From a virus, in the IMG/VR virus record IMGVR_UViG_3300028384_000023, positions 1-32,039 of that record: DNA of 32,039 nt; one strand, given 5' to 3'. How positions within the stretch are numbered: position 1 is the stretch's first letter; every line of letters starts with the position of its first letter. The position numbers and the translations under genes are program-made. Shown here in pieces: positions 1-32,039 of the stretch. A model generated the notes under the pieces. That model did not search any database and was not told where the DNA came from. It was given only the letters and a program-made list of their open reading frames with translations.

Positions 1-180
1 CAATTGGTCGTTTTCAATATCCGTTTGGATTTTTTCATATAAATCAGTCCCAAGAATTTGTTGAATGTGGATTTCTTGTGCAATCAAAATATATTGAATG
101 AACTTGTCCGTATCAACGTTCCCGTTTAAACTTGTATGACGAACTAAATCGTCGCGTTTTATCATTAATCCCGTCGCCAT
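1..180 (-). CDS. Head completion/connector protein, N-terminal part (DUF6712-like), cut by window edge
   Basis: The reading frame starts at the ATG at 180 and runs off the left edge after 60 codons, with a codon boundary exactly at position 1. The start overlaps the portal stop codon as TAATG, so it is translationally coupled to the portal gene. The N-terminus (KRDDLVRHTSLNGNVD, then a helix ending ILGTDLYEKI) resembles what I know of the DUF6712 family, found after the portal in phages of Bacteroidota and thought to be a gp6-like head-tail connector. The matching C-terminal half appears at the other end of the window (31761-32039), so this is probably one gene interrupted by linearisation. 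The family call is from memory of the pattern; the connector role is inferred from family and position. Confidence 0.8.
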   Translation of the reverse strand, partial: MATGLMIKRDDLVRHTSLNGNVDTDKFIQYILIAQEIHIQQILGTDLYEKIQTDIENDQL

Positions 181-1931
181 TATTTCTTATAATTTGGGTG
201 ATGTCCACGATCTTTTCGATCGATGTTTGCTTCCGATACTTCTTTGGGGTTTTTAGGTAGTTTAAAACCTTCACGAACCGCTTGGTTTACATTGACAAAT
301 TTTGTCCCGGCAAGTGCATCCCCACCCCATTCGGTTCCGTCATTCTTTAATCGTTTTTTATAAATACGACGTTCCCAACGGTGATGACAATTGACCCCGC
401 CTTGGTACTTAAAAATTGAATAATTGCGCCCCTTGTGACCGTGTTGTTTATTTACGCCACGGGCCGACAACATTCCAATGTCTTCTTTGCGATACAATTT
501 ATTTGCGGTCAACATATTTTTGCAAAATGGTCGTGAATCACCTTTTGGTTTTTTGCGTGATCCTTTGACGTATTTGTATCGTACCTTGTATCGTTTGTCG
601 TCTTGTGATGAATCGTCTTTTGCGGACAAATGCAAACCGTTCAAATAATCTTCGACGTCAAAATCGTCGGGTTCATCTTCGGTGTCTTCCACGTCAATCA
701 ATTCGTAATCTTCCAAATTTTCATCTTCACCCAAGTCTTTTATCATTTCCCACAATTCATTGCCTTCGTCGTCGGATAAAAATGGACGTTCGTCTTTTGA
801 CAACTTGACGCCGGTTTCTTCTTCCCTTGATTCTTCCGTGACCGCATTTTCGGCGTCAATGAATGCCAATGGTTGTAATGTTTTGAAATATAATTTTAAG
901 GCAATGTCGTTTTGTGCTAATATTTCATCAACGCATTCAACAATCAAATCTTGGTATGGTTTAATTGTGACGTTGTTGAACAACAATGATGCGGTTTCAA
1001 TTTCATCCGCGTTTGATCCCAAACCGTTGTTTTCGGTTCGAATACCTAACAACAAAGGTGATGTCACCCGGTGGGCGATTATTAATTTGTTTTGACACTC
1101 CCGAGAAAGATATTCATAATGTGTCGCCGCATCCGACAATGAAATGTCATCAATTGTCGTTTTGGTTTCTGAATTATTGTTGAATGATATTATAATTTTT
1201 TCACCACGCGCCCCGGTCAGTTTACGCATCACATCATTTTTGACTTGCAATTGATGTTCTTGATCCGGTATCCCGTTGTTGAAATTTACAACCTTGGTAC
1301 CCGAAAAACCATTCATTACGTCATTGATAAGAAAATCGGAAATTTCGGTTTCCAATTCAGCGTATGCCGTTTCATAATCTTGTGGACAAACATAATCGTA
1401 TCCGGAAACATATCGTTTGATGACTTTGATTTCGGGTTCGGTTCCATTACCAAATCCAAATGCCGCAATTCTTTTTGGCTTGTCGTTTGGTTTTACGTCT
1501 TTCCATTTTGGGTGGTAATAATATCCTTTGATATTTCCATCGTCGTCCATTTTTTCGGGTCGCAATGTTTGTCGTGGAAAATGTTCCGCACGAACAACCT
1601 TGCCGTCCTTGCGTAAAACTTGGAACGAACCTTCGCCCAACATCTTCAAATCCAAAACAACTTTTCGCAAACAATTTTGATTGAATATCGAACGCATTGC
1701 CGCATATTCATCCGGCTTGGCCGCCGAATCCAACGCATCCAATCCGCGTCCATAAATCAAATTTGATATACCATTAATGATTGCGTTGTTTGTTGTTGAG
1801 TTGATATACAAATCAATCAAATATGAATAATAATCGTTGTCGTCACCATAGGCAACCCAGTCTTTGCGTTTATCTTCAACAACCGTCGGTTTTACATACG
1901 ACGATAAATTAATAATGTGGGTGTTGCTCAT
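180..1931 (-). CDS. Portal protein with a C-terminal MuF-like Cys/His extension
   Basis: This 583-residue protein is the likely portal, the dodecameric ring at the capsid vertex through which DNA enters and leaves. The N-terminal half has portal-like features: an early block with YGDDNDYYSYLIDLY and NAIINGISNLIYGRGLD, then a long helical central part containing AHRVTSPLLLGI near residue 290. After an acidic linker (about 400-450) comes a separate basic domain. It holds RPFC (Cys about 470) and a GGVNCHH motif (Cys about 515, followed by two His), a pattern resembling the D-R-R-x-x-H...NCRC signature of MuF-type minor head proteins. The start overlaps the upstream gene as ATGA, and the stop overlaps the connector start as TAATG. 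Portal identity is confident; the role of the tail domain is inference. Confidence 0.88.
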   Translation of the reverse strand: MSNTHIINLSSYVKPTVVEDKRKDWVAYGDDNDYYSYLIDLYINSTTNNAIINGISNLIYGRGLDALDSAAKPDEYAAMRSIFNQNCLRKVVLDLKMLGEGSFQVLRKDGKVVRAEHFPRQTLRPEKMDDDGNIKGYYYHPKWKDVKPNDKPKRIAAFGFGNGTEPEIKVIKRYVSGYDYVCPQDYETAYAELETEISDFLINDVMNGFSGTKVVNFNNGIPDQEHQLQVKNDVMRKLTGARGEKIIISFNNNSETKTTIDDISLSDAATHYEYLSRECQNKLIIAHRVTSPLLLGIRTENNGLGSNADEIETASLLFNNVTIKPYQDLIVECVDEILAQNDIALKLYFKTLQPLAFIDAENAVTEESREEETGVKLSKDERPFLSDDEGNELWEMIKDLGEDENLEDYELIDVEDTEDEPDDFDVEDYLNGLHLSAKDDSSQDDKRYKVRYKYVKGSRKKPKGDSRPFCKNMLTANKLYRKEDIGMLSARGVNKQHGHKGRNYSIFKYQGGVNCHHRWERRIYKKRLKNDGTEWGGDALAGTKFVNVNQAVREGFKLPKNPKEVSEANIDRKDRGHHPNYKK

Positions 1932-2272
1932 ATCGTGATAAATTCATTTGTTGACGAAACGGTATTGAAAAAAGAATTATTGACCGTGTGTGTCGTGACG
2001 TTTTGATTTGTACAAAATATTTTGTCGCGATAAATAACGTCGTTTGACGCGTTCGAAACGGTCAAGGTATATGTGACCCCTTGTTTCAATGAAAACGTCG
2101 CGGAATATTCTTTAAAATACAAATTGGACGATACCCCGGTTGTGTCTGAATCATGCACATTGGTGTTTGTCATTTCGTTTCGAATTTTAAAATTATATGT
2201 CGCCCCGGATGTGAATTCCCTTGGAATAAATTTGATCGTTTGGGACGACGATGTTTCTTGTAAGACAATCAT
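1928..2272 (-). CDS. Small beta-rich virion protein of unknown function
   Basis: This 114-residue protein lies between the tail-tube-like gene and the portal gene in the head module and overlaps the portal start by ATGA. The sequence is rich in Thr, Ser, Asn and Val with alternating hydrophobic residues (for example YTLTVSNASNDVIYRDKIF), which suggests a compact beta-sandwich. No signal peptide or membrane segment is visible. Its leader is TTATTATTATAAT directly before the ATG and it follows a strong terminator, so it may start a separate transcript or be reached by read-through. I do not recognise a named family. A minor structural or neck role is inferred only from position. Confidence 0.75.
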   Translation of the reverse strand: MIVLQETSSSQTIKFIPREFTSGATYNFKIRNEMTNTNVHDSDTTGVSSNLYFKEYSATFSLKQGVTYTLTVSNASNDVIYRDKIFCTNQNVTTHTVNNSFFNTVSSTNEFITI

Positions 2273-2304
2273 ATTATAATAATAAAAAAACCCTTGTTTT
2301 GTTA

Positions 2305-2332
2305 AAATAAAAAAGGGGACGAATTGTCCCCC
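2305..2332 (-). terminator. Rho-independent terminator after the tail-tube-like gene
   Basis: Read on the minus strand, a six-pair GC stem (GGGGAC with GTCCCC) closes a five-base loop and is followed by TTTTTTATTTT. It lies 25 bases beyond the stop codon at 2357 and before the gene starting at 2272. Confidence 0.85.
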
Positions 2333-2356
2333 TTCTTAAAAAAATAAATACAATTA

Positions 2357-2935
2357 TTATGTATTTGTTCCCGCCGTGATTGTTATTGTTCCAACTAATC
2401 CGGCAAAATCCGTCACGCTGAATGGGAAATCCGCGTCAACCGTATCGGAATTCATGAAGTTTGCGGCTTCACGTTCTTGTGCGGCAAACGTCAATGTGTA
2501 CCCACTCAAATCACCCATTGCACCACCGGTCACGATTGTTCCGCCCGTAACCTCTGCACCGTGTTCCAATCCCATCATGAAAACGTTTCCGTTGTAATCT
2601 TCAACGGCGATGTGTGGACGTGCTGACGCCAACAATTTGATTTCTTTGTTGTCTTCTTTTGACAATTTTGTCAATGTCAAATTCAATGTTTGTTCAAAAA
2701 ATGTCGTGCCGTTTTCACGCGACGATGTGATGTTTTGTTCAAACGATGAATTTCCTTTTAATTCATATTTAAATGCGGTAAGGTTATTCGATGAATCCCC
2801 CGTCAAATTGGTGATTTCTTCGTCGGTTTTGGTAACTGTTCCCAAATTTCCAAAATCAACAAAGTAAACGTTTTTCAAACCACCAACGACGTCGGCGCAT
2901 GGAACCGCCCTTCCCCGTGTCAATGTACATGCCAT
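2357..2935 (-). CDS. Probable major tail tube protein (structural, 192 aa)
   Basis: This 192-residue protein directly follows the major capsid gene and is bracketed by two terminators, as expected for a highly expressed structural gene. It begins MACTLTRGRAVPCADVVGG, a start I associate with abundant structural proteins of flavobacterial phages. It continues with KYELKGNSSFEQNITSSREN and EDYNGNVFMMGLEHGAEVTGG, alternating strands that fit a tail-tube or jelly-roll fold. Length and position suit a tail tube subunit, but a head decoration role cannot be excluded from sequence alone. No other gene in the window is a better tail-tube candidate, and a siphovirus with a tape measure needs one. Confidence 0.75.
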   Translation of the reverse strand: MACTLTRGRAVPCADVVGGLKNVYFVDFGNLGTVTKTDEEITNLTGDSSNNLTAFKYELKGNSSFEQNITSSRENGTTFFEQTLNLTLTKLSKEDNKEIKLLASARPHIAVEDYNGNVFMMGLEHGAEVTGGTIVTGGAMGDLSGYTLTFAAQEREAANFMNSDTVDADFPFSVTDFAGLVGTITITAGTNT

Positions 2936-2948
2936 AATTTTATCGTTT

Positions 2949-2990
2949 TAAAAAAAAAGGGCGGGTGAACCGTTTGGATCGCCCACCCCT
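2949..2990 (-). terminator. Strong rho-independent terminator after the major capsid gene
   Basis: On the minus strand a 13-position stem (GGGTGGGCGATCC with GGTTCACCCGCCC, one G-U pair and two mismatches) closes the loop AAAC. It is followed by nine or ten T residues. It lies about 20 bases after the capsid stop and about 15 bases before the next start. Confidence 0.88.
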
Positions 2991-3011
2991 TTTAAATTAT
3001 TTATTTAATTA

Positions 3012-3962
3012 TTAGTTTGCTGAATTTGTCACACCGTATGTCACGATGTCTTCAACAATACCATAATTGACACCACCGGTCAATTTCATTACAATTCGCA
3101 CATTGTCACTTCCGTCAATGTCAGCCATGTCAATCACCTTTACAAGATTATGATCCGCGACTAATCCGGTTCCAAAATAAAGGTTGGATTTTTGTGCGGC
3201 AATCATTTGGTTGTCATTTAATCCTTGTGCCATTACCATTTTAACACCGTCAAATGTCAAGTCACCGCCACCATAAAAAAGTGTCCCTTTGTTGTCAACA
3301 CCATTTGCGCCTAAATTTGTGGCAAAACCACCCAAGGCACGAACGTATTTTCTAATTGCATTTTGTGACGCATATATCAACAAATCTTCTTCACCGTAAA
3401 GGGCGGACGGAATTGCGTCCACAACCTTCCCAATTTCCTCGATGATATTCCCGGACGTAAGGGTCGTTCCGCTCACTTCTTGTCCACTTGGTAAAGCCGC
3501 GTCGGTTGACAATCTTGTTGTAATTCCGTCAAATTCACCCGAATTGGATGAATCACCACGCCAAATGTTTTGTTCGATTTTTTGGGCAACCTTTGCGGAA
3601 ACGTGTCCGATAAGGAAATCCGCAAATGAAGGTGCCAATTGGTCGTGTGCGCTGAATCCCATTTCTTCGGCCATCCAATCGGAACGAAAATCCGCCTTAC
3701 ATAATTGTTTGTTGACTTTCAATTCCGTTGGTTCCAAAGTTCGTTCGGTTAATGTAACCGATCCACTAGGGTCAAAATCACACGATGACGCTTGTAAAAT
3801 ATCACCCGTTGCAACTTTGTGCAATGTTGTTTTAAACTTCACGTTTGGCTTGATTGTAACCAAACCGTCATTTAATGTTTTCCCACTTAATAACGCGGCC
3901 GCGATGTATTCTTTTGCGTCTTGACCCGCGTATGAAGTAGTGATGCTTGTTGTTGTACTCAT
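3012..3962 (-). CDS. Major capsid protein
   Basis: This 316-residue protein sits after the prohead protease, scaffold-like and decoration-like genes and before the portal, where the major capsid gene is expected. It lacks an obvious coiled-coil delta domain, consistent with scaffolding coming from the separate acidic gene at 4405-4968. Features include an N-terminal segment ending NVKFKTTLHKV, a mid-region with EEMGFSAHDQLAPSFADFL and KVAQKIEQNIWRGD, and a C-terminal stretch KLTGGVNYGIVEDIVTYG. The pattern is typical of HK97-fold capsid subunits of phages of Bacteroidota, with a P-domain-like spine helix around residues 115-140. A strong terminator follows. The call rests on position, length and general pattern rather than on a signature motif. 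Confidence 0.85.
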   Translation of the reverse strand: MSTTTSITTSYAGQDAKEYIAAALLSGKTLNDGLVTIKPNVKFKTTLHKVATGDILQASSCDFDPSGSVTLTERTLEPTELKVNKQLCKADFRSDWMAEEMGFSAHDQLAPSFADFLIGHVSAKVAQKIEQNIWRGDSSNSGEFDGITTRLSTDAALPSGQEVSGTTLTSGNIIEEIGKVVDAIPSALYGEEDLLIYASQNAIRKYVRALGGFATNLGANGVDNKGTLFYGGGDLTFDGVKMVMAQGLNDNQMIAAQKSNLYFGTGLVADHNLVKVIDMADIDGSDNVRIVMKLTGGVNYGIVEDIVTYGVTNSAN

Positions 3963-3985
3963 CTTATTTCAGTTTTTATAAATTA

Positions 3986-4399
3986 TTATGATGGGTCTGT
4001 CGCAGTAATTGAACCACTCGCGTCGCCAATTCCTTGAACATACCAATTTGTCCCGTCGCATTCAAATTCAACAAAGTCACCCGACGTTGATGTGTTAGCG
4101 ACAAAATTGATTTGATCTTCGTCCTTCGCGGGAATGACACCGGAATCAACCGCAATCACCCCGTTGATGTTGTCACCCTCAGCCGAATCAATCACCCAAT
4201 CCGTTGTGGGTGCCGTTGCGCCAATGATGAATTTAAAATTCACACCCGCCTTCAATGCCGGAAGTGTAATTGTGCCACCACCGGCGGCATTCAAAATGAT
4301 TCTTTTTCCGGAATCCGCACTTGTAAGTGTTGCCCCGGCCGTTTTTGTTTCGACGTCTTTGAAAATTCTAATTACGTCATTTGAAAATGTTGTTGCCAT
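3986..4399 (-). CDS. Putative capsid decoration or stabilising protein
   Basis: This 137-residue protein lies between the scaffold-like gene (5 bases away) and the capsid gene. It is made of short beta strands with many Gly, Thr and Asp residues (SADSGKRIILNAAGGGTITL) and ends in an EFECDGTNWYVQG element followed by a short disordered tail. The DGTNWYV ending is seen in many trimeric phage surface proteins and is echoed as SDGTEWFIV in the nearby protein at 5006-5455. Decoration of the capsid is inferred from position and composition. No signal peptide or membrane segment is visible. Confidence 0.72.
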   Translation of the reverse strand: MATTFSNDVIRIFKDVETKTAGATLTSADSGKRIILNAAGGGTITLPALKAGVNFKFIIGATAPTTDWVIDSAEGDNINGVIAVDSGVIPAKDEDQINFVANTSTSGDFVEFECDGTNWYVQGIGDASGSITATDPS

Positions 4400-4404
4400 T
4401 TAAA

Positions 4405-4968
4405 TTATTTTTTGATGTTTGCGATTTTAGCCATTACAATATCTTGGGTCGTCATTGGACGATTTGTTCCCAATTTGATTGTTTTCTTTTGTTCAACTTC
4501 CGGGTTGTGTGTAACACGTTCAACCGCCGACAATTCTTCAACGGGTTCGGTCACTTCTTCAACCGGTTGTTCTTCTTCGGACATTTCTTCTTTGTCCTTA
4601 ATCATTGCCTTGATTTCTTCAATCATGTCTTTGACTTCGGCAAGTTCTTGTTTGGTTGCGTATTCCATTTCTTCTTTTTCTTCCTTGTCGTCTTCGGCCA
4701 ATTCTTCTTCCTCGGGTTCATCCGATTTTTTTTCACCAAGGGTTTCGATTTTACCTTCTTCCTTGACTACCAATTGACGTCCGTCTTCCAATTCGTATTC
4801 ACCGACCGGCATGGCGATTTTTTCTTCTTCCGTAACAATGAACACTTCATTGCCGGGTGCCATTTCTTCGGCTTCGATTACCGTTCCGTTTTCCAATTTT
4901 GTTTGGGCAAGTTGTACTTCAACCCCCAACAATGTTTTAATTTGGTTTATCATGTCGTTTGTATTCAT
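4405..4968 (-). CDS. Putative scaffolding protein, highly acidic
   Basis: I place the start at the ATG at 4968 (MNTNDMINQIKTLLGVEV) because it follows an AT-rich leader, whereas the longer frame would run into the upstream gene. The 187-residue product has an N-terminal globular part (about 1-75) containing GEYELEDGRQLVV. A very acidic linker rich in Glu and Asp follows, then helical coiled-coil-like segments (about 95-125) and a Lys-rich end (DIVMAKIANIKK). Small, acidic, helical proteins encoded between a prohead protease and a capsid gene are usually internal scaffolds removed by that protease. The basic C-terminus could contact the capsid shell. The assignment is by position and composition; no family motif is diagnostic. 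Confidence 0.78.
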   Translation of the reverse strand: MNTNDMINQIKTLLGVEVQLAQTKLENGTVIEAEEMAPGNEVFIVTEEEKIAMPVGEYELEDGRQLVVKEEGKIETLGEKKSDEPEEEELAEDDKEEKEEMEYATKQELAEVKDMIEEIKAMIKDKEEMSEEEQPVEEVTEPVEELSAVERVTHNPEVEQKKTIKLGTNRPMTTQDIVMAKIANIKK

Positions 4969-5005
4969 ATTATTAAAATAAAATTTGATTGTTGTTGTTA
5001 CATTT

Positions 5006-5455
5006 TTAGGCCTTTTTTTGAACGATGAACCATTCGGTTCCATCCGACCAAATTGCGATACCTTCGTAAGACTTGTTGATTTCGTAATATGATGACGAAC
5101 CGTCAAGGTTTTGACCCGCCTTCGGTGTCAAATGAACTCTTGTGTTTGTCGTGAATGTTGAATCCGATATGAAACGAATCAAACGATTTGTGTTTGTTGT
5201 TGCATCCGGTAGTGTGTAAACAACCGTTCCGTTTGAACCTGACCATGACAATTTCATTATTTTAAAATTTGCATAATCTGTCCCACCCAAATCAACGGGT
5301 GTTGACGCGTCGGCCGTTTGGGCCTTCGGTATCATCACATTTGCAATGTCGTTGTATGTGGTTTTTTTTGTTGTTGATCCTTGAACCAAAACAAATGTTT
5401 CCGTACCCGAAAACGCGGTGGCGGTTGATAATTCACTAATTTTTTTGTCGGCCAT
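5006..5455 (-). CDS. Head decoration/fibre-like structural protein (ADKKISEL type)
   Basis: This 149-residue protein begins MADKKISELSTATAFSG, followed by ETFVLVQGSTTKKTTY. That N-terminal pattern is common in phage fibre and head-fibre proteins, where it attaches the protein to the virion. The rest is beta-rich and ends with IAIWSDGTEWFIVQ, an element shared in style with the decoration-like protein at 3986-4399. Its start overlaps the stop of the Cys-rich gene as TAATG. Being inside the head module, between protease and scaffold, favours a head-associated surface protein over a tail fibre, but this is inference. Confidence 0.75.
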   Translation of the reverse strand: MADKKISELSTATAFSGTETFVLVQGSTTKKTTYNDIANVMIPKAQTADASTPVDLGGTDYANFKIMKLSWSGSNGTVVYTLPDATTNTNRLIRFISDSTFTTNTRVHLTPKAGQNLDGSSSYYEINKSYEGIAIWSDGTEWFIVQKKA

Positions 5456-5661
5456 TATTGAAATAATTTATGTCCATTTTCTTGGACAATTCTTTGTAGT
5501 TGTTCGGTGTATAATATGAAATGTGTTTGTGTAACACTCCCAATCCCTTGTGCAAAATAATCGTCGGGATTGCAACATTCCCTTGAATATGAACCGTCAC
5601 GACATAGACATGCACGTTGGTCATTGCGTGGAACGTTGTACCGTTGATTTTTATTTCGCAT
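5455..5661 (-). CDS. Small Cys-rich protein with CLC...CC motif, unknown function
   Basis: I choose the ATG at 5661 (MRNKNQRYNVPRN), which overlaps the protease stop by 11 bases; a longer in-frame start at 5706 would overlap it more. The 68-residue product carries RACLCRDGSYSRECCNP, four Cys in about 13 residues, followed by an aromatic segment DYFAQGIGS. Small proteins with a CLC...CC core preceding head genes are familiar to me from flavobacterial phages, but I know no function. The Cys pattern could bind zinc or form disulfides in the virion. The stop overlaps the next gene as TAATG, so it is likely co-translated with the decoration-like gene. Confidence 0.72.
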   Translation of the reverse strand: MRNKNQRYNVPRNDQRACLCRDGSYSRECCNPDDYFAQGIGSVTQTHFILYTEQLQRIVQENGHKLFQ

Positions 5662-7276
5662 TCTTTGGTGATTTTGGGTGTTTGCTTGGTAACAAATCAT
5701 TGTCACCCGTGTATTTTGAATTTTGTGGTCGTCCGTTTTTTACCAAATATAAAAATGCGTTGACACGCGCAAACGACCATTGTGATGCACTTCGGACAAG
5801 CGGTGAACGGGATGTGTTAAACGCACCCAACCCACGTTGGAAAACTGATTTCAACATTCCAACCGTTACACCATAACCCAATTTTTTCTTGTATCGTTCA
5901 TTGAAATCGTCCGATTTTTTCTTCAATGTGGCTTCGTCCTTGGCGGACACCTTTGCACCACGCGTTGTTGATGCGTCCCCTTTTGCCGTTCCCTTCCCCT
6001 TGGGTGATGGATTTGGTGTGTCGGATTTAGGTGCCTTCGGTGATTTTTTTACACCACCACGTTTACCAACTTCCGCAAGTTCTTCTTCCGTTGCCTTGAC
6101 ACAACGATGTTTTTTATAATCTTTTTTGTATCCCGGGGGACATTGGTATTTTTTAAAATCTTCCAAATTGTGTTGACGACATGGCATGAACCATGTTTTG
6201 CCCTCGTATTCGTGTTCGTGATATCCCGCGCATCCAATATCTTCGGCGGCGGAAATCGCAAGTTCTTTTGTTGAATATGCTAAACGGTCGTCAATAATGG
6301 CAAGTGTGTCGTTGACCACTTGTGATTCCATTTCTAATTTTCCCAGTTCCTTCAATTTTGATTCGGCGTATCGTTTTCCGGCCTTGCCACCCCATAATAA
6401 ATAAGATATTGTTCCACATGCTTGTGTGTCGCCTTCGTCATAATATTCTTCGGCGCGTGACAAGAATGAATACATTCGCGTCAATGTTGATTCCGAAATG
6501 GGTTGTTTTTGTGCCAACTGTCGTGCGCGTATTTTACCCACTTGGGTTGCGCATTTATTGTTGACCTTTTTATTCAATTCAATTCCGCGTTTGGCGTTAT
6601 TGGAAACCGCGTCCGGATAATCGGAATATGATTCCATTTCAATTGTTTCGCCTGATTTGTATCGATTATCTTTTTTTACAATCGCGCGGATTTGTGATAA
6701 TATGAATTGTTTTTCTTCTTCTTCAATCCGGGCCATTTCATCTTTAATGGATTTGTCTTGTGGCCGTTCCATCTTGTCGGAAAAATACGCTTCGATTGAA
6801 AATCCTTTGACCTTGCCAGTTTTCACAAATTCATTCCAAACTTCGTCATTGTCAACCTTCATTGACACCATCCAAGTCCCAACCGGAACATTCAGCCCGT
6901 AATGTCGTGACTTGTCTTTTTCCGATTCAACAATCCATGATTCAACAACGGTCATTCCTGAAATTGGTGCGTCGTGTTCTAATGTCGCCCGTGATTGATT
7001 GCCACGTTTAAAAAACAATTGACTTGCCTTCAATACCGTTTGCCGTGAAAAATAAATGTAATATTCTTTTTCCCCTGACTTGCGATAAATTGGTTTATTT
7101 GGAACCAATGCCGCACCCATAAGGATGCGTTTTTCTTTGTCAACTTCGGCAAATTTAAATTCTTGATTTTTTAACGCAATGAATTCTTCTTCAATTGCCG
7201 GTTTTTCGACAACGCTAATCGCGTCGATTCCGGATATTTCATCGTTTTCGTCAATGAATAATTCTACAATGTCCAT
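5651..7276 (-). CDS. Mosaic prohead protease (XkdF-like) with C-terminal DUF5824-like domain
   Basis: This 541-residue protein has an N-terminal XkdF-type serine protease domain (about 1-170). After RILMGAALVPN it shows TLEHDAP (likely catalytic His about 101) and VKGFSIEAYF (likely catalytic Ser about 160), the order seen in herpesvirus/HK97-type prohead proteases. A second helical domain (about 218-312) contains SNNAKRGIELNKKVNNKC and YLLWGGKAG. A short Cys/His-containing stretch (about 349-392) and a Pro/Ser/Lys linker follow. The last 100 residues (VFQRGLGAFNTSRSP, RVNAFLYLVKNGRP, TGDNDLLP) resemble DUF5824. The protease should cleave scaffold and capsid subunits during maturation. Roles of the three added domains are unknown. 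The leader is ATTATTATTAAAAT before the ATG. Confidence 0.87.
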   Translation of the reverse strand: MDIVELFIDENDEISGIDAISVVEKPAIEEEFIALKNQEFKFAEVDKEKRILMGAALVPNKPIYRKSGEKEYYIYFSRQTVLKASQLFFKRGNQSRATLEHDAPISGMTVVESWIVESEKDKSRHYGLNVPVGTWMVSMKVDNDEVWNEFVKTGKVKGFSIEAYFSDKMERPQDKSIKDEMARIEEEEKQFILSQIRAIVKKDNRYKSGETIEMESYSDYPDAVSNNAKRGIELNKKVNNKCATQVGKIRARQLAQKQPISESTLTRMYSFLSRAEEYYDEGDTQACGTISYLLWGGKAGKRYAESKLKELGKLEMESQVVNDTLAIIDDRLAYSTKELAISAAEDIGCAGYHEHEYEGKTWFMPCRQHNLEDFKKYQCPPGYKKDYKKHRCVKATEEELAEVGKRGGVKKSPKAPKSDTPNPSPKGKGTAKGDASTTRGAKVSAKDEATLKKKSDDFNERYKKKLGYGVTVGMLKSVFQRGLGAFNTSRSPLVRSASQWSFARVNAFLYLVKNGRPQNSKYTGDNDLLPSKHPKSPKNAK

Positions 7277-17835: not shown

Positions 17836-19008
17836 TTAATACACAAAATATTTTCCTTTGTGTGGATTTTCAAGTTGCATCATTAACGCATACCGACCCG
17901 CGTCGATTGCGTGATCCCCCGCCAATGGGTTTGGTTTCTGTATTGTTTCACCTGATTTGTCGGTCGCCCACACATATCCGTTGATTTCTTTTATTAGATT
18001 TTTTGACCGTTCGGTCACAAACACTTTGTTTTGATTTATCAAGTTGATTCCGTAAATAATTGAATCGCGTCCCTTGGTCACACCCGTAATTGAATGACCA
18101 TACGATTGCAGTTCGGCAATTGATTTTGGTTCGGCTGAATCAGCATAAATGTGATCGGTGATGTCGTTGTTTTTTAAGAACTGGGAAATGTGTGAATTCA
18201 ACATCCCTTTTTGATACAACACCTCGTCGAATATATACCCCCCGTCAAAATACCAAAGACCCACACATGATGAATTGTCAACGGAATATCCCCAGTCCAA
18301 TCCATAACACAACAAACGTGCATCTTCGGGTATTTCGTCAATGTGTTCGATGTCGGGGAATATTGCCCCGGATAATTGTCCGATTTGACCGTCAAGATAA
18401 ACACGCGTCCAATTACGCCAGTAAGTCGATTTTGCGGCCTTTTCCCGGGCGATTTTAAATTCATTGAGTATTGAATCCGGAATGGTGTCGTTGTCCTTGT
18501 ATGTGACTGTAATGAAGTCCACATCTTCTTGACCAACCAATTCACGGTCGGCCCAAAACAATTGTGATGGATTGTAGTCCAACCAAATGGTTCCGGATGT
18601 TCTTGTGGCCAATTGATTATATGATTCGTGGGAAATCAAATTTGTTTCATTGACAAACAAATCCGAACGACGCGCACCGCGTAAACGGTCGGCATTTTCA
18701 GTTGAAAAAAATTCAATGGTTGACCCATTGGAAAATGTGTATTTTAAATTTGATTTGTTCCAACGTGATTCACGCCACCGTCCAATGCCTTCCATGATTA
18801 ATTTGAAGTCGCGAATACATCCACGACGTAAATGTGGCAACGTGACGGACACGACCGACATTTCACGACCGGGTGTTTTCATGCACTCGTTAATCATGAT
18901 TGTCAAAATGCAAATTGTTTTTCCCGCCGCAGTTCCGCCACGAATTAAACGTTTGCGTTTTGTCAAACGATATATTTTGTCAAATGCTTGTGTTCTTCGG
19001 ATTTCCAA
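17836..19008 (-). CDS. terL: Terminase large subunit
   Basis: This is the packaging motor: an ATPase that drives DNA into the capsid, with a nuclease that cuts concatemers. Walker A is RGGTAAGKT (residues about 23-31) and Walker B with catalytic Glu is DLFVNE (116-121). The RNase H-like nuclease domain shows LDWG (Asp 238), YADSAEP (Asp 290) and GDHAID (Asp 365, 369). The 390 residues are near complete for a short TerL. No in-frame ATG lies before Walker A; translation would begin at the TTG at 19008, after an in-frame TGA at 19017. An ATG at 19018 is one base out of frame, and removing one T from a TTT run would give MTILEIRRTQ. Either a TTG start or a one-base error is likely. Confidence 0.92.
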   Translation of the reverse strand: MEIRRTQAFDKIYRLTKRKRLIRGGTAAGKTICILTIMINECMKTPGREMSVVSVTLPHLRRGCIRDFKLIMEGIGRWRESRWNKSNLKYTFSNGSTIEFFSTENADRLRGARRSDLFVNETNLISHESYNQLATRTSGTIWLDYNPSQLFWADRELVGQEDVDFITVTYKDNDTIPDSILNEFKIAREKAAKSTYWRNWTRVYLDGQIGQLSGAIFPDIEHIDEIPEDARLLCYGLDWGYSVDNSSCVGLWYFDGGYIFDEVLYQKGMLNSHISQFLKNNDITDHIYADSAEPKSIAELQSYGHSITGVTKGRDSIIYGINLINQNKVFVTERSKNLIKEINGYVWATDKSGETIQKPNPLAGDHAIDAGRYALMMQLENPHKGKYFVY

Positions 19009-20232: not shown

Positions 20233-20741
20233 TTCAATGCATTTCGAATGTTTGTTCCAACGTGTCGGTCACCGGCAATCCAACGACCGAATTGATTGTC
20301 CTTGTCCACATAAACCAAACGACCATTGTCGATGTCCAAAAATTCAATGGGATGTTTTTCTTCACCCGTTGGTTTTAAAAACGGCACGACCGCAACGTAT
20401 GGTTCTTTGACTTCGTGTGCTTCAAATAAATATGTTTTTTGTTGGCGACCAAGGTTGTCGGTCACATCTGTCATTGCCGCGTATTCCCTCGCTTGTAAAA
20501 ATGTCATTCTTGACCCAAGAAATTTGTGACTTGAATTGACGTATTTTATTTCACCAATGATGACGTTTGTGTCGTCTGCAAATTTAAAATCCAAATCACC
20601 AATATAAACGTTTTTCCCTTTGAAGTGTTCCGACACCTTGCCGTCAAAAAACGCGGTTTTGTAATTCTTGGTTTTTGTTTTTGGTTTTACTGAATCCAAT
20701 GTTTTGGATATTATTTCAATTTTGTCTTTTGTTTTTATCAT
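20223..20741 (-). CDS. PD-(D/E)XK-like nuclease candidate (172 aa)
   Basis: This 172-residue protein contains GDLDFKF followed by GEIKYVNS: Asp 49 (or 51), 14 residues, then Glu 64-x-Lys 66, the spacing and context of the PD-(D/E)XK active site. A helix with SRMTFLQAREYAAMTD follows. The second half is beta-rich (KTYLFEAHEVKEPYVAVVPF, GRLVYVDKDNQFGRW). It overlaps the DnaA-like gene upstream by 26 bases and the methyltransferase downstream by 10. It could be a Holliday-junction or flap nuclease for packaging or recombination, or act with the methyltransferase as a restriction-like pair. I recognise no named family and rank a nuclease role as a plausible inference. Confidence 0.72.
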   Translation of the reverse strand: MIKTKDKIEIISKTLDSVKPKTKTKNYKTAFFDGKVSEHFKGKNVYIGDLDFKFADDTNVIIGEIKYVNSSHKFLGSRMTFLQAREYAAMTDVTDNLGRQQKTYLFEAHEVKEPYVAVVPFLKPTGEEKHPIEFLDIDNGRLVYVDKDNQFGRWIAGDRHVGTNIRNALKCV

Positions 20742-21159
20742 GGCATTGTTTCAATTGGTTTGTTAATGATTTATTGTCGCGCATAAGTTGTTCACACCTT
20801 GATTCCAAATCATGCAATCGTGTCAAGGCTTGTGTCAAATCCATGTCGTCTTTTTCACTTAAATCCATAATGTATTGAATTTTAGCTTGAACGTTGACGT
20901 ATTGTTGTCGTAAAACCCGGTCGTGTTCTTGCCAATCATTAAATGATTTAATTGAATGCAAAACCGTTGCATGATTTTTTGATGGGCGCAATGAATTGCC
21001 AATCTTTTGATACGGCATCCCAAGGAATTCACGACACAATTTGTAATACAACATCCTTGCATTTACATAATTTGCTTGTCTTGATTTTGTAGTGTTGGGA
21101 TTGTCCAAGTCAATTTTTGTTTCGTAGCCAACCACTTCTTTAATTGTTTTAATGTCCAT
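20716..21159 (-). CDS. Stand-alone DnaA domain IV-like DNA-binding protein
   Basis: This 147-residue protein lacks the DnaA ATPase but has the C-terminal DNA-binding signature: ARMLYYKLCREFLGMPYQKIG (helices, about 34-54) followed by NHATVLHSI (62-70), matching the R-x-x-H-x-T-V signature that reads DnaA boxes. The last 60 residues are a charged coiled coil (RLHDLESRCEQLMRDNKSL). I infer a sequence-specific binder of host or phage DnaA boxes, which could recruit or block host DnaA, or mark the phage origin. The C-terminus overlaps the PD-(D/E)XK-like gene and the start overlaps the upstream small gene by 11 bases. Confidence 0.8.
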   Translation of the reverse strand: MDIKTIKEVVGYETKIDLDNPNTTKSRQANYVNARMLYYKLCREFLGMPYQKIGNSLRPSKNHATVLHSIKSFNDWQEHDRVLRQQYVNVQAKIQYIMDLSEKDDMDLTQALTRLHDLESRCEQLMRDNKSLTNQLKQCHDKNKRQN

Positions 21160-26032: not shown

Positions 26033-26134
26033 GAATTAAATTTAAAATGTTAATGAATATTTTTCCCACTAACCCACCAAAGTTCGGTGAATTATTTTTT
26101 AATTTCAATAAATTGTTTGGATGTGTTTTTAACA

Positions 26135-26269: not shown

Positions 26270-26685
26270 TATTTGTGTTTATTGTTTCCGAATACCTTTT
26301 CAACACCACGCGAACCGAAATATGATGACACGATTACCATTAACAACCCGGACGTTGCCGACGTGTCAAGTCCCCAAAACCAACCGCCCATGTATCCAAT
26401 AGAAAAGAATGCCAAACATAATGGACGGACATTTTTGGCCAACCAAGAATCCGATCTTGAATCCGCAACCCAACGCCTTGTTGTACCATCGATTTCAGCG
26501 CGTTCGATTCTTAATTTTTCAAGTGCGATTTCTTTGTCGGCTTCCGACATTTCGGATGAACCAATAATTGATTCAATGACACTTCCAATGGGTGTCGATT
26601 CTGCAAGTCCCGAAACAACCTTCGGTATTTTATTCAATAAAAACTTCCCGACGGCCGTTTGTTTAAATGGTTTTTTCTTACTCAT
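26269..26685 (-). CDS. Holin-like protein (3TM holin family type)
   Basis: This 138-residue protein begins with a basic segment, then SSEMSEADKEIALEKLRIER, then DGTTRRWVADSRSDSWLAKN and VRPLCLAFFSIGYMGGWFWG. The R-x-W-x-x-D...DSWL-x-K-x-x-RP pattern is that of the 3TM holin family first described for gene-transfer-agent release. Two hydrophobic segments (about 88-104 and 109-125) precede a charged end GVEKVFGNNKHK. It lies 26 bases after the endolysin gene. It should form the membrane lesion that releases or activates the endolysin. Confidence 0.8.
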   Translation of the reverse strand: MSKKKPFKQTAVGKFLLNKIPKVVSGLAESTPIGSVIESIIGSSEMSEADKEIALEKLRIERAEIDGTTRRWVADSRSDSWLAKNVRPLCLAFFSIGYMGGWFWGLDTSATSGLLMVIVSSYFGSRGVEKVFGNNKHK

Positions 26686-26711
26686 AAGTTATTGTTGACC
26701 CACTTGTGTTG

Positions 26712-27077
26712 CTAATACAACCAAGTAACGTTGGACGATTTTTGTTGATCGATGTCCACATGGATGAATTTATCGTGTATCCCCATTCGCGTAATTCCAA
26801 CGGAAATAATTGCTTGTAATAAATCGTGTCGGTCGCGCGAATTGTCACAACCAAGGTCGGCGGCGACGCCGTACAAATGTGAACTTCGTTCCGCTCCCCC
26901 CACAAGTCGGTTTCGTTCGATTGAACGATATCCGGAATTGATTCGAATTGGTCGTCCGTATATTTCCCGCACCTTGTCAAGAATACGAACAAAATCATGA
27001 TCCATGTTGGCAATACCCGAACCTTCGATGTCCGGTGAATCGAATTCCGACCAACTGAAAAATTTTGGTTCATACAT
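26712..27077 (-). CDS. M15-family peptidoglycan peptidase (endolysin)
   Basis: This 121-residue protein matches peptidase M15A: FFSWSEFDSP at the start, INSGYRSIERN (47-56), the zinc motif SSHLYGVAADL (His 67, Asp 74) and KFIHVDID (His 106, Asp 108). These are the metal ligands and catalytic residues. It should cleave peptide cross-links of peptidoglycan. No signal peptide is present, so a holin must release it. It lies between two membrane proteins (a 45-residue one 3 bases upstream and the 3TM holin-like one downstream). It is a bare catalytic domain without a cell-wall-binding part. Confidence 0.92.
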   Translation of the reverse strand: MYEPKFFSWSEFDSPDIEGSGIANMDHDFVRILDKVREIYGRPIRINSGYRSIERNRLVGGAERSSHLYGVAADLGCDNSRDRHDLLQAIISVGITRMGIHDKFIHVDIDQQKSSNVTWLY

Positions 27078-27080
27078 GAT

Positions 27081-27218
27081 TTAAAATAATAGTAATGACA
27101 ATAAAATAATTAAAACCAAACCGGTGACTCCGATTAAAAATTGGTCGTACACGTCCCCATGAATTTTATCCATAATCCATTCCCGTGCAATCAAATAATA
27201 AATTTTTAATTTTTTCAT
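27081..27218 (-). CDS. Small single-pass membrane protein of the lysis cassette (45 aa)
   Basis: An ATG at 27218, one base after the upstream stop, opens a frame ending at 27081, 3 bases before the endolysin ATG. The product has a polar basic N-terminal half (MKKLKIYYLIAREWIMDKIH) and a strongly hydrophobic C-terminal segment (FLIGVTGLVLIILLSLLLF, about 27-45). It is a likely tail-anchored or inner-membrane spanin/holin-type peptide. The position immediately before the endolysin supports a lysis role. No family is recognised. Confidence 0.7.
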   Translation of the reverse strand: MKKLKIYYLIAREWIMDKIHGDVYDQFLIGVTGLVLIILLSLLLF

Positions 27219-27219
27219 G

Positions 27220-27627
27220 TTAATCTTTTTTTGATGGGTGATATTTTTCGTCGAAATCAATGGCCGCCTTCAATATTACCTTGTCAACGACATGGTCAAG
27301 ATTTTCCAACATTTGTTTTTGTAAATTAATCACCATTGATTCCAAATCGTCTTTGGCCTTAACCAAGAATTCAATTTGTTGTTCTTTTTTTTCTATTGTT
27401 GATTTCAATGCGTCAACATCGTGTGGATCGCGCCCGGTCAAAGTTGAAATGACCATTGACAATGATGCGGCCAATGTACCGACCAACATCATGACAACTT
27501 CTTTATTTGTGTCTAAAACTGGGAATTGAATAAATGCAATTATAATCCCAATAATAAAAAAGAAAATAATCAATGAACCAAAATATGAACGCAATTGTTT
27601 GGCCACGCCGTTTGTTGGTAATTTCAT
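27220..27627 (-). CDS. Membrane protein with coiled-coil tail, lysis cassette
   Basis: This 135-residue protein has two transmembrane segments (about 17-36, SLIIFFFIIGIIIAFIQF, and 44-63, MMLVGTLAASLSMVISTLT), then GRDPHDVDALKSTIEKKEQQ and a coiled coil to about 115. The C-terminus is mixed-charge (AIDFDEKYHPSKKD). Such proteins occur next to endolysins in phages of Bacteroidota and may be holin/antiholin or spanin-like parts that pass force or signal through the envelope. Its ATG overlaps the stop of the small holin-like gene as ATGA. Confidence 0.75.
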   Translation of the reverse strand: MKLPTNGVAKQLRSYFGSLIIFFFIIGIIIAFIQFPVLDTNKEVVMMLVGTLAASLSMVISTLTGRDPHDVDALKSTIEKKEQQIEFLVKAKDDLESMVINLQKQMLENLDHVVDKVILKAAIDFDEKYHPSKKD

Positions 27628-27779
27628 TTTTTTTGTTTTTTAAGTTTTTCAAATATTTGTAATCCGGTGTATGATATTAGTAGCACCAAGGATATAAATT
27701 GCAATGGTGGGTTCCAATCTGTGAACGCCGACACCGTCAATCCAATTCCATTCAATATATATAATTTAAAATTGTCCAT
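27624..27779 (-). CDS. Small holin-like membrane protein (51 aa)
   Basis: I choose the ATG at 27779 (MDNFKLYILNGIGLTVSAFT), 4 bases after the upstream stop, giving 51 residues; longer in-frame starts lie inside the upstream gene. Two hydrophobic segments (about 6-20 and 26-42) are joined by the loop FTDWNPPLQ, and the C-terminus is basic (FEKLKKQKK). Small two-helix proteins with a Lys-rich tail are typical of class II holins. It opens the lysis cassette. Confidence 0.7.
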   Translation of the reverse strand: MDNFKLYILNGIGLTVSAFTDWNPPLQFISLVLLISYTGLQIFEKLKKQKK

Positions 27780-27783
27780 GATT

Positions 27784-28146
27784 TTATTTTTGTGTCCATT
27801 CTTGGTCAACTTCATTCCAATAATAATCAAAAGGCGTATAATCGTCCGGTCGTTCAACCGGGGGTTGCCAATCATTATTTGAATCCAATGTCCATGAATT
27901 GAACGGTTGGGGTTTTATGAATACATTTTTTGTTGAATCAAAGGTGTACCCGATACCGGCAAATTGTTTTCTTAAATTTCCATTGTATGATGTTTGTTTC
28001 CATGTCGCATTTCCAAAAATATTGTTCAAAAAATCAACACCAATTGATTCTTGTTCGACGTTGTTGTCATCTAACAATATATCATTAGCAATTGCAACCA
28101 CTTCGGTGACAATATTGTTTGAATCTATTTTTGCAAAATGTGCCAT
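27784..28146 (-). CDS. Conserved marine-phage fibre-associated protein (MAHFAKID type)
   Basis: This 120-residue protein begins MAHFAKIDSNNIVTEVVAIA. It contains NIFGNATWKQTSYNGNLRKQ, FAGIGYTFDSTKNVFIKPQP and NSWTLDSNNDWQPPVERPDD. This block is a widespread short module in marine cyanophages and pelagiphages, found near fibre genes, but no function is known. No membrane or signal segment is seen. It ends the fibre module and is the last gene before the lysis cassette. The call as a virion or fibre-associated protein is by family occurrence and position. Confidence 0.78.
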   Translation of the reverse strand: MAHFAKIDSNNIVTEVVAIANDILLDDNNVEQESIGVDFLNNIFGNATWKQTSYNGNLRKQFAGIGYTFDSTKNVFIKPQPFNSWTLDSNNDWQPPVERPDDYTPFDYYWNEVDQEWTQK

Positions 28147-28147
28147 T

Positions 28148-28957
28148 TTAAACTGTATATGTTCCCGATCCCGTGAATTTTATTACTGTATTTGAACCAC
28201 TTGTCGTGATTGTAGGTGAACCCGTAGTTGTTCCCGTATATGATGCGGTTGGAACGCTTAATATTACAACACCCGAACCACCGGCCGAATTTGATGCACC
28301 GCCGCCACCACCGGTGTTTGCAGTTCCCGCCGTACCGGTGTTAAAATAAACGGCACCCGCACCGCCGCCACCCGAACCACCTGATCCCGGTGTCAATTGC
28401 CTTGCGGTTCCACCACCACCCCCGGCATAATATGTGTTTGTCCCGGTAATATTTGATTGAACACCAACACCACCGTTTCCACTTTGATCCGCAGTCGCAC
28501 CGGCCGCACCGGCACCACCTCCGCCACCACCACGAAATGGTGTCAAATTGTATTCACCAAAACCACCATTATTTCCTTGACCGGCCGTACCAGTTCCGCC
28601 GGCTTGTGATTGACCGACAACCCCGGTATTGAGACCTCCACCACCACCAGAACCACCATTTTGACCGGTTGGTGATGTTGATTCGGAATTACCACCACCC
28701 CCACCGCCAACAGACGTGACCGATGTGATACCCGTAATTGTTGTATTTGTTCCTTGATTGCGACCCGCCGCACCACCTCCGCCAACGGTGATTGTCAAAG
28801 TTGTTCCGGGTGTTGCTTGGCTAAATGTTCCCGATAATAAACCACCGGCACCACCACCACCAAACGTACCCCCGCCACCTCCACCGGCGACACTTAAATA
28901 TGAAATGTCGTATGGTTGTGCGGAAACTTGAAATGATATAAATCGTCGGTTAAACAT
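28148..28957 (-). CDS. Glycine-rich adhesin / fibre tip protein
   Basis: This 269-residue protein is dominated by Gly-rich segments (GGGGGGTFGGGGAGGLLSG, GGSGGGGGLNTG, GGGGGGAGAAGAT), separated by short strands such as LTITVGGGGAAG. The ending GSGVVILSVPTASYTG and IKFTGSGTYTV is typical of the Gly-rich domain found in marine phage fibres. Poly-Gly segments of such adhesins fold into bundles of polyglycine-II helices with variable tip loops that bind receptors. The start overlaps the upstream fibre gene as TAATG. A receptor-binding role is inferred. The low-complexity GGN-rich coding DNA invites slippage and recombination. Confidence 0.83.
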   Translation of the reverse strand: MFNRRFISFQVSAQPYDISYLSVAGGGGGGTFGGGGAGGLLSGTFSQATPGTTLTITVGGGGAAGRNQGTNTTITGITSVTSVGGGGGGNSESTSPTGQNGGSGGGGGLNTGVVGQSQAGGTGTAGQGNNGGFGEYNLTPFRGGGGGGAGAAGATADQSGNGGVGVQSNITGTNTYYAGGGGGTARQLTPGSGGSGGGGAGAVYFNTGTAGTANTGGGGGASNSAGGSGVVILSVPTASYTGTTTGSPTITTSGSNTVIKFTGSGTYTV

Positions 28958-29520
28958 TAGATATCAGTAGAATCGGATGAATATGTTGATATCGAATAAA
29001 AAAAGACCGGGTCGGTCGCTGAATCGTCAACACATTCAATTTGGATTATATTGTAATCCGTTCCGTTGTCCTCGTAATCCGCGCCAATTTTATTAAATGT
29101 GTTTGTTGATGAACCTTGTCCACCCAAATTAAGTGTTTGATTTCCGCGCAATCCGTAGATTGTAATAATTTGACCAAGTTTGTAATTTGACAAATTAATT
29201 GTATATGCACCTGTTAAATCACCACTCAATTTAAATACCGAACCGTTGGCACAATTAAATGTGACCGAACCGGTTAATGTTGATATTGTTTGTGTGACGG
29301 TGTATCGTGTCGCAAGTTCATCATGATCAATTGAATCATTTGCGATTGTTACCGCACCACCCGACACACTTATATCACCCGTAATCGACAAATTAGTTCC
29401 GTCACCTAATAATGTATAAATTTCATCGGTGTTGTCTTGTATTTTGTCCATGGCCACACGAAGTTTGTCCCCCGTGCCGTCGTTGCTTGATGTTCCTAGA
29501 AATACCGTTTGTTTTGCCAT
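28957..29520 (-). CDS. Fibre protein, paralogue of 31049-31486 (NDGTGD type)
   Basis: This 187-residue protein starts MAKQTVFLGTSSNDGTGDKL, with RVAMDKIQDNTDEIYTLL following. The NDGTGDxLR...DKIxxNxxEIY motif is common at the N-terminus of tail or neck fibre proteins and likely docks them to the virion. The C-terminal half (DLTGAYTINLSNYKLGQI, NTFNKIGADYEDNGTDYN, CVDDSATDPVFFYSIS) aligns with the protein at 31049-31486, whose own middle is shorter. An inserted beta segment (about 50-85) separates the two conserved ends here. The two genes look like a tandem duplication that has diverged. It is coupled to the Gly-rich gene downstream by TAATG. Confidence 0.8.
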   Translation of the reverse strand: MAKQTVFLGTSSNDGTGDKLRVAMDKIQDNTDEIYTLLGDGTNLSITGDISVSGGAVTIANDSIDHDELATRYTVTQTISTLTGSVTFNCANGSVFKLSGDLTGAYTINLSNYKLGQIITIYGLRGNQTLNLGGQGSSTNTFNKIGADYEDNGTDYNIIQIECVDDSATDPVFFYSISTYSSDSTDI

Positions 29521-29523
29521 GAT

Positions 29524-30573
29524 TTATGCGATTGCCAAATATATGTATGTACTTCCATTAACGTTGGTATTTCCACCCGCTTGGGCCACACTAAATCCAT
29601 TTGACGTAAATGCAGTTGGGCCAAACGCACTTTCGTCCGATTCTGTTCCATTGCTTAAATTTGCAAATACATTAATTCCCGCACCCCTTACAGAATCCGA
29701 AACAACCCAAGAATTTGAATTTCCCCCGGTGGCGCGTTTAATAATTACAAACCTTGGTTGAAATCCCACATTGATTGTTTGTGAACTTCCCGAACCATTA
29801 TATGAATCAATCTTTTGATATCCATCCACGTTGTGGAACGCATAAACAAGATAGTCCGCTCCTGAACTGTTTACATTATTAACTGAACTACTTCCCGCAC
29901 CAAAACCTAAAGTCGTACTTGTTGCTTTATTTGTCCCCAATATACCATTATTTCCACCACTTGTTCCATCTGCACCTGCGTTTGTTAAATTTAAAAATAA
30001 CTTTTTATCTGTTGGTACATGATAAACACCCCACAATGGATCATTACCATCATTATTAATATCTTTGTGAATATATAAATCAGGTGTTTGGTTAAGTCCG
30101 TGACCAAAAGTGGATGAACTATTACCATCTCCTGTGTATTTTATGATGCTAAATCCAGCGTCCGTGTTCGCCGAAACTTGGGACGTAATTGAACCGTCGG
30201 TGTTCGATACGGCAGTCCCGCCGGCCTTCCAACTATACGAAACAAAATTAAATCCACCATACGAATTTCCCCAGTTTCCACCGATAGTGTATCCGTCGGA
30301 ATTAAATGAAGTGACACCCGCCGCGTCAGTTGCTTGTGCCGCCGTTAAATCCGAATAGATTTCTTTTGTTGTACCACGAACTGAATCAACTAACCTTCTT
30401 GATGTTGCAGTTGATGCGTTTCTCGGAAAAGTCCAAATAAAATCCGGTTGGAACGCCATTCCAGTAATCGAATGCGCACTTGTACCGGCCGGATCTGTGT
30501 ATGTTGCAATATGAAAATGTTCCGAAGGTGTTATGTCACCGGCTTGTTCAAAAAACTTTTTTTTGTTTGACAT
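29524..30573 (-). CDS. Tail fibre protein (DUF7483-like repeats)
   Basis: This 349-residue protein begins MSNKKKFFEQAGDITPSEHF. It contains FQPDFIWTFPRNAS...RLVDSVRGTTKEIYSDL, an SFNSDGYTIGGNWGNSYGGF segment, a second FGHGLNQTPDLYIHKD block, and a third FQPRFVIIKRATGGNSNSWV...DSVRGAG. It ends AFTSNGFSVAQAGGNTN. The repeated pattern P-(D/R)-F/L-x-(W/I)...DSVRG...F-x-S-x-G-(Y/F) is the DUF7483-type fibre fold common in marine phages. It is likely a trimeric fibre for host binding. Its start is 1 base after the stop of the gene at 30575. Confidence 0.82.
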   Translation of the reverse strand: MSNKKKFFEQAGDITPSEHFHIATYTDPAGTSAHSITGMAFQPDFIWTFPRNASTATSRRLVDSVRGTTKEIYSDLTAAQATDAAGVTSFNSDGYTIGGNWGNSYGGFNFVSYSWKAGGTAVSNTDGSITSQVSANTDAGFSIIKYTGDGNSSSTFGHGLNQTPDLYIHKDINNDGNDPLWGVYHVPTDKKLFLNLTNAGADGTSGGNNGILGTNKATSTTLGFGAGSSSVNNVNSSGADYLVYAFHNVDGYQKIDSYNGSGSSQTINVGFQPRFVIIKRATGGNSNSWVVSDSVRGAGINVFANLSNGTESDESAFGPTAFTSNGFSVAQAGGNTNVNGSTYIYLAIA

Positions 30574-30574
30574 A

Positions 30575-31045
30575 TTATATCATTAATGACGGCAAATCGT
30601 AATTTGCCACGGCACTTTTTGTTGTTTTTGCATTGATGCTTGATTCGTGTGTCGCGCAATCTGTTCTTAATTGGTCGCGTTCGGTTTGAACATCACTTGG
30701 AATTGCCGTTCCTTTTTCTGATTTACGGGTCACATACCAATCAGTTTCGGCCAACTTATAATTGTAAATTGATTTTAATTGTGCAATTTTTGCGGTTTTC
30801 ATTTGTGCGACCGTTTGTGAAAACGTTTTTGAATTTACCGGGTATGTAAATTGATTGTTTGCGGAATCAAAATAAATGTCGCCCAATTCTTGGGTGTTTG
30901 AATTATATGTCGGTGTCACGACATCATAAAACCCATGTGATTCCAAATCGGAATCCGATAAATATTGGAAACCAATTATGTTGTTGTAACTTTTGGGAAC
31001 TTGATCGTATGTCTTGATTGTTCCATTAAAATCTTTTGCCTTCAT
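30575..31045 (-). CDS. Fibre-associated protein with DUF4376-like C-terminus
   Basis: This 156-residue protein starts MKAKDFNGTIKTYDQVPKSY. Its C-terminal half contains QLKSIYNYKLAETDWYVTRK, SEKGTAIPSDVQTERDQLR and a closing ANYDLPSLMI. The L-x-x-TDW-x-V-x-R-x-x-E...IP-x-x-V-x-x-x-R-x-x-LR pattern is frequent in proteins encoded with tail fibres and resembles DUF4376/fibre-chaperone C-terminal regions. It could be a fibre assembly chaperone or a structural collar between two fibre genes. The spacing (3 bases before, 1 base after) shows tight co-translation. Confidence 0.72.
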   Translation of the reverse strand: MKAKDFNGTIKTYDQVPKSYNNIIGFQYLSDSDLESHGFYDVVTPTYNSNTQELGDIYFDSANNQFTYPVNSKTFSQTVAQMKTAKIAQLKSIYNYKLAETDWYVTRKSEKGTAIPSDVQTERDQLRTDCATHESSINAKTTKSAVANYDLPSLMI

Positions 31046-31048
31046 ATT

Positions 31049-31486
31049 TTATGGTGTTGTGTCGGATGTAAATGTTGCAACTGAATAATTATAAATTGCG
31101 GCGGAATCAATATCGTCGACACACAAAACTTGAATGTGATTGTCCGACGCGCCGTCGTAATCGTTTGATCCTACTTTGTTAAAAGTTTCGGTTGTGTCGT
31201 CACTTGTAAATGTGATTGTTTGTGATCCCGAAACAATGATATCAATCATTTGCCCCGCCCGCATATTTTGAATGTTGAATGTCGTTGCCCCAGTCAAATC
31301 TGAAGTCAATCGAAAAACATCATTTGCGGATGCGTCCAAGTTAATTGTCCCGGTCGTGGCGGTGATTGTTGATTCACCACCATACAATTCATTGAAATTG
31401 TCATTTACTTTATCAAAAGAATCACGAATTGTGTCGCCCGTTCCGTCGTTTGCCGTGCTTCCAATGCCAATTGCTTGTTTTGCCAT
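31049..31486 (-). CDS. Fibre protein, shorter paralogue of 28957-29520
   Basis: This 145-residue protein starts MAKQAIGIGSTANDGTGDTI, then RDSFDKVNDNFNELYGG, the same fibre-docking pattern as the protein at 28957-29520. The rest, with DLTGATTFNIQNMRAGQMID, ETFNKVGSNDYDGASDNH, IQVLCVDDIDSAAIYNYSVA, aligns with that paralogue. This copy lacks the extra middle segment. It probably forms a short virion-attached fibre or decoration. It is the second gene after the connector, joined by a 12-base gap to the 55-residue gene upstream. Confidence 0.8.
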   Translation of the reverse strand: MAKQAIGIGSTANDGTGDTIRDSFDKVNDNFNELYGGESTITATTGTINLDASANDVFRLTSDLTGATTFNIQNMRAGQMIDIIVSGSQTITFTSDDTTETFNKVGSNDYDGASDNHIQVLCVDDIDSAAIYNYSVATFTSDTTP

Positions 31487-31498
31487 TTTTTATTTTTT

Positions 31499-31666
31499 TT
31501 AATATTCCGTTGCGTCTGCCTTGAATTCAGTTGAATCTGCCGTAACTAATGTTGTCGATGCTAAAAACAACGACCCGTCGGCGTCAAATGGATATATTGA
31601 ACCCCAACCATTTGTTTCGTTCGTATTACCGAACCAAGACACCGCATATATTGAACCGAATCCCAT
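31499..31666 (-). CDS. Short TAD-repeat protein (55 aa), fibre module
   Basis: An ATG at 31666, preceded by TTATTATTTAAATA, opens a frame to the TAA at 31499. The product begins MGFGSIYAVSWFGNTNETNG, then WGSIYPFDADGSLFLAS, and ends with a T-A-D-S-T-x-F-K-A-D-A-T repeat. The MGFGSIYAVSWFG...WGxIYPxDADGS pattern is familiar from short structural proteins of marine phages. The two short TAD-like repeats suggest a small beta-solenoid or spacer. It opens the fibre module after the connector gene. Confidence 0.72.
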   Translation of the reverse strand: MGFGSIYAVSWFGNTNETNGWGSIYPFDADGSLFLASTTLVTADSTEFKADATEY

Positions 31667-31760
31667 TATTTAAATAATAATTTTTTTGTCTTATTGTTAT
31701 ATAACGCCGTCAAATATGTTTGCAATTTTCGAACGTTTTTTTGTTTTGGTTTATAGGTTT

Positions 31761-32039
31761 TTACAACACCCATCCTTCATAGTTTTGTCCATATAACGGT
31801 TTGACATCTTCATTGTTGTTGGTGTAATATTCGGGAAACTTGGAAGGGGCGTGAAAATTTAAAAAATCAGTTAAACGGTCAACATAAAATTGCATGATGT
31901 CGCGTTCTTTTTCGACTAAATAATCCACTTCGTTTTTCGACGCCGTTTCGCCGTTTTCCGTTGTGTGTTTGAATATTCCCTTGTTGCCAATAGTAAACGC
32001 CGCAAATGGCAAATATTGCACCATGGCGGCATGAATCAA
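31761..32039 (-). CDS. Head completion/connector protein, C-terminal part (DUF6712-like), cut by window edge
   Basis: The frame enters from the right edge with a codon boundary at 32039 (the first codon is an internal TTG, not a start) and ends at 31761 after 92 residues. It contains HAAMVQYLPFAAFTIGNKGI, HTTENGETASKNEVDYLVEK and a helix with FYVDRLTDFLNFHAPSKFPE. These fit the second half of DUF6712-like connectors (the NKGI...ENxE...RLxDFL pattern). Together with the N-terminal 60 residues at 1-180 it would make about 152 residues in one frame. From memory of the family I would expect some 10-20 more residues at the join, so a few tens of bases may be missing. Confidence 0.8.
   Translation of the reverse strand: MIHAAMVQYLPFAAFTIGNKGIFKHTTENGETASKNEVDYLVEKERDIMQFYVDRLTDFLNFHAPSKFPEYYTNNNEDVKPLYGQNYEGWVL

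Follow-up and report, generated by a model that had tools for sequence, protein, structure and literature searches.

The window, i.e., the whole stretch of viral DNA analysed here (IMG/VR record IMGVR_UViG_3300028384_000023), comprises 32,039 bases, and every recognised gene in it is located on the minus strand (Table 1). The recognised structural and lysis genes are those for terminase, portal, probable capsid, protease, tail, holin, endolysin and fibres, and the recognised DNA genes encode a C5 methylase, a DnaA-C-like protein, an exonuclease, a helicase, SSB and NinG. An open frame runs off each edge of the window, as the original prediction had described together with the overlap between portal stop and connector start, and all three features were found. 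No match to Phage_integrase, Resolvase or DNA_pol_A was obtained in the six frames of the window using searches with working controls, in agreement with the predicted absence of integrase and polymerase genes, DNA_pol_A (PolA) being the sole polymerase family searched.

The protein encoded at 20716-21159 (-) has a coiled-coil-like tail in addition to a DNA-binding domain of the DnaA C-terminal type (Bac_DnaA_C), and its Pfam matches include no AAA domain. Two genes, at 28957-29520 and 31049-31486 (both -), have related fibre-base N-termini, both assigned to phrog_677, and are apparently paralogues within one fibre cluster. The short conserved ORF preceding the fibre genes has two adjacent matches in locus L052.

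Table 1 Coordinates of the main features in the window.
Feature	Position	Strand	Remarks
N-terminal 60 codons of the phrog_35048/DUF6712 gene (putative head-tail connector)	1..180	-	Open at base 1
TAATG overlap of portal stop and connector start	178..182	-	
Portal protein (phrog_33693)	180..1931	-	Directly upstream of the connector
Probable major capsid protein (phrog_11320; weak phrog_1623/212)	3012..3962	-	
Terminase large subunit (Terminase_3 / Terminase_3C)	17836..19008	-	
Tail fibre / virion protein (DUF7483)	29524..30573	-	
Fibre-base-like gene (phrog_677)	31049..31486	-	First listed ORF of at least 60 aa after the connector
Short conserved ORF, 55 aa (MGFGSIYAVSW...)	31499..31666	-	Located between connector and fibres; 45 fetched loci have a match
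C-terminal 92 codons and stop of the same phrog_35048/DUF6712 gene	31761..32039	-	Open at base 32039

One gene split across both window ends

In profile searches with each half alone, the N-terminal half aligned to positions 5-56 of the 184 in phrog_35048 and the C-terminal half to positions 81-159, while the joined protein gave a single match to this family spanning positions 5-159 across a gap of 15 amino acids, with 56.0 bits as compared to 36.8 and 23.2 for the separate halves. The Pfam family DUF6712 (PF20459) was likewise matched by the C-terminal half (55.7 bits), the joined protein (62.3 bits) and the homologue L003 (87.9 bits), using the Pfam gathering cut-off of 25 bits as the threshold for membership, and full-length homologues match it at E about 1e-24. 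The N-terminal half alone fell below this cut-off, as it lies mostly upstream of the Pfam model. The window's copy thus belongs to both families, differing from them in the 15 residues absent at the join. The name DUF6712 does not occur in any of 5.39 million papers searched.

To measure the distance between the two halves, 71 IMG/VR relatives were used that had been found via the portal and that carry both parts in one open frame. The spacing is 15 residues (45 nt) in 57 of these, 17 residues in one and 19 in the other 13 (a distant clade). In addition, each of nine relatives has only one DUF6712 gene, which in record G001 is broken into two pieces by a frameshift. Here, one additional base (TTTCGGG) shifts the frame of the connector of locus L084 near G001:9222-9247, reflecting either a sequencing error or a broken gene. 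Given the single-family match, the relatives in which both parts are in frame and the one copy of the gene, the two edge frames are the halves of one phrog_35048/DUF6712 gene. The original prediction of one connector gene at both ends therefore holds, its halves covering complementary, non-overlapping parts of the family, and the check it had proposed, aligning the concatenated protein to the family profile, returned one continuous match for phrog_35048 and a score above the cut-off for DUF6712.

The gene was also predicted to lie after the portal and before the fibre genes, and this position recurs in the relatives, where a fibre-base-like gene is likewise found just downstream. The order is that expected of a connector, i.e., directly after the portal in the window and its relatives, and phage P12024S also has the portal and then a gene of the connector family, apart from a small gene on the opposite strand. 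An AlphaFold2 model (pLDDT 72) is mostly helical with a beta hairpin. Foldseek found no PDB match to this model below E 1, and a sequence search for the connector fold (HK97 gp6 / SPP1 gp15-like) gave no match of note. Among viral predicted structures, Foldseek returned 16 matches at E <= 0.001, all uncharacterized or without a name, as well as a protein of Cellulophaga phage phiST annotated only as 'structural protein' (E 7e-3). Such a fold, encoded next to the portal, would presumably suit a gp6/gp15-type head-tail adaptor. The split gene thus probably encodes an adaptor of this kind beneath the portal, the name 'connector' being taken from gene order.

Cyclic gene order and genome completeness

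Comparing the two window ends revealed no terminal repeat or end overlap, and exact 22-mers from both ends, searched across all viral contigs, retrieved no other record. As complete genomes have been recognised by near-identical 5' and 3' ends (>94% over >=50 bp; PMC5332604), the window does not qualify on terminal overlap, and the proposed closure of its genome is based on its relatives and on gene order. Full-length sequences were obtained for nine relatives (29,862-33,191 nt), and in all of them the shared genes lie on one strand in the cyclic order of the window, e.g., in IMGVR_UViG_3300021185_000008 (31,616 nt, with an exact end overlap of 127 nt) and IMGVR_UViG_3300046167_000309 (30,468 nt). 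Leaving out the two fibre-base paralogues, each relative shows one descent in gene order, while shuffled orders gave means of 9.5-17.5; only G020 shows two, because the connector gene itself spans its ends. The breaks fall at g9/tailbig, g41/g42, g26/g27, g36/g37, g17/TerL, TMP/tailbig, tailbig/g13 (twice) and the connector.

End overlaps are present in six of the nine relatives. Those of G011 (127 nt) and G020 (119 nt) are exact and those of G009 (141 nt) and G016 (106 nt) contain two mismatches each, and all four relatives represent circular assemblies with sizes of about 30-33 kb. The overlaps of G013 (557 nt at 88.7%) and G018 (395 nt at 86.8%) look like overlaps between strain variants. 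The uncultured relatives resemble the window in having the shared genes on one strand and the portal followed by the DUF6712 gene and the fibres, but differ in being opened at other genes, in the end overlaps of several of them and in their accessory genes. For example, nine ORFs of at least 80 aa in the closed relative G011 are unmatched in the window, including asparagine-synthase-like, thymidylate-synthase-like and ERF genes, differences that look like accessory variation and not a missing block. In the locus L091 of a closed relative, asparagine-synthase-like and thymidylate-synthase-like genes are adjacent (L091:2604-3896 and L091:3877-4593, both -) and have no match in the window; this pair might have a role in nucleotide or base modification.

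Since its cyclic order is shared with relatives that are opened differently, the window very probably covers nearly all of the genome of an uncultured tailed phage, opened in the middle of a gene with about 45 nt lost, and its cut point is arbitrary. The packaged DNA could be circularly permuted, or, alternatively, a terminally redundant or concatemeric replicating form may close the assembly graph. The assembler would then have opened the circular map within the gene of 167 codons that follows the portal, losing about 45 nt. It could be argued that virions contain a linear genome whose physical (cos-like) ends lie inside the connector gene, as two assemblies, the window and G020, were opened there, the latter with ends overlapping within that gene. 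Yet other relatives hold the connector whole and are opened elsewhere, and of the 67 contig ends that lie up to 5 kb past the portal, five fall in the connector as compared to ~6.8 expected from an even spread (hand count), making such ends highly improbable; just as improbable is a lineage whose virion DNA is cut within the connector, so that the gene is restored only by circularisation in the host. As L007, L053, L058, L078 and L080 end in the connector, a hotspot for breaks was considered there and rejected, the count agreeing with chance. The lack of a terminal overlap would also fit a larger genome that carries the connector gene twice and of which the window would be a part, but the relatives have a single copy and circular maps of 30-33 kb, and for two copies to yield complementary halves would be highly coincidental; the chance of this is negligible.

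The bases probably missing at the join

With the 15 residues restored, the gene encodes 167 amino acids, the same as the near homologues L003 and L009, and the full genome would be ~32,084 bp. The original prediction had estimated that roughly 10-20 residues were missing and that the genome was about 32 kb, and both figures agree with the range of 15-19 residues seen in the relatives and with the ~32.1 kb derived from the gap size and these relatives. The codon boundaries at both window edges, by comparison, are little evidence, as one edge falls on a boundary by chance in one of three cases and a 45-nt gap forces the boundary at the second edge once the first one fits.

We infer that the missing bases are present in this virus and that the gap more likely reflects an ordinary assembly gap due to strain variation or low coverage. 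The original prediction instead ascribed it to over-trimming, i.e., to a terminal assembly overlap having been removed from both ends. An overlap of ~45 nt lost in this way is compatible with a near-complete genome, fits in order of size and would account for a small clean gap. Yet the sister records retain overlaps of 127, 119, 141 and 106 nt, showing that trimming is not general practice in the collection, and 45 nt matches none of these lengths (106-141 nt). Over-trimming is therefore unlikely and this part of the prediction is unsupported; its probability overlaps with that of an almost complete genome, as it concerns the cause of the gap only. The window ends might also abut as they are, with 45 nt of the gene truly deleted in frame in this virus, as the join is in frame and removal of exactly one copy of an overlap from a contig would give the same picture. 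However, 15-19 residues are retained at this position in each of the 71 relatives measured, and the lost stretch, whose start precedes the predicted helix 63-89 by two residues, includes the nearly invariant Y64. A true deletion is very unlikely, because the helix would lose its first half and no measured relative is without the stretch. The cause aside, the original interpretation stands as regards the single gene, the genome size, the gene order and the absences from the inventory, while its over-trimming at both ends does not.

Cultured relatives and significance

By portal, the nearest cultured phages are the Nonlabens (Persicivirga) phages P12024S and P12024L of the genus Inhavirus (34% identity over 98%). 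In these phages, the next same-strand gene after the portal encodes a 184-aa phrog_35048 relative with 35% identity to the L003 homologue, and homologues from the window's relatives share 30-35% identity with the P12024S/L connector family protein. Unlike the window, P12024S and P12024L have genomes of 35.7 kb and a small opposite-strand gene annotated between portal and connector, and identity to them is much lower. Judged from the shared portal and connector genes, the window represents a new uncultured relative of P12024S/L; genus membership is not claimed at such distance. The portal was also sought in bacterial genomes, where none of ten pattern matches encodes a relative.

While these results bring no general change to phage biology, the window can be read as a near-complete genome, and the lack of integrase and polymerase functions in it can thus largely be regarded as real. 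The gene order of relatives can in this way show completeness where a terminal repeat is lacking.
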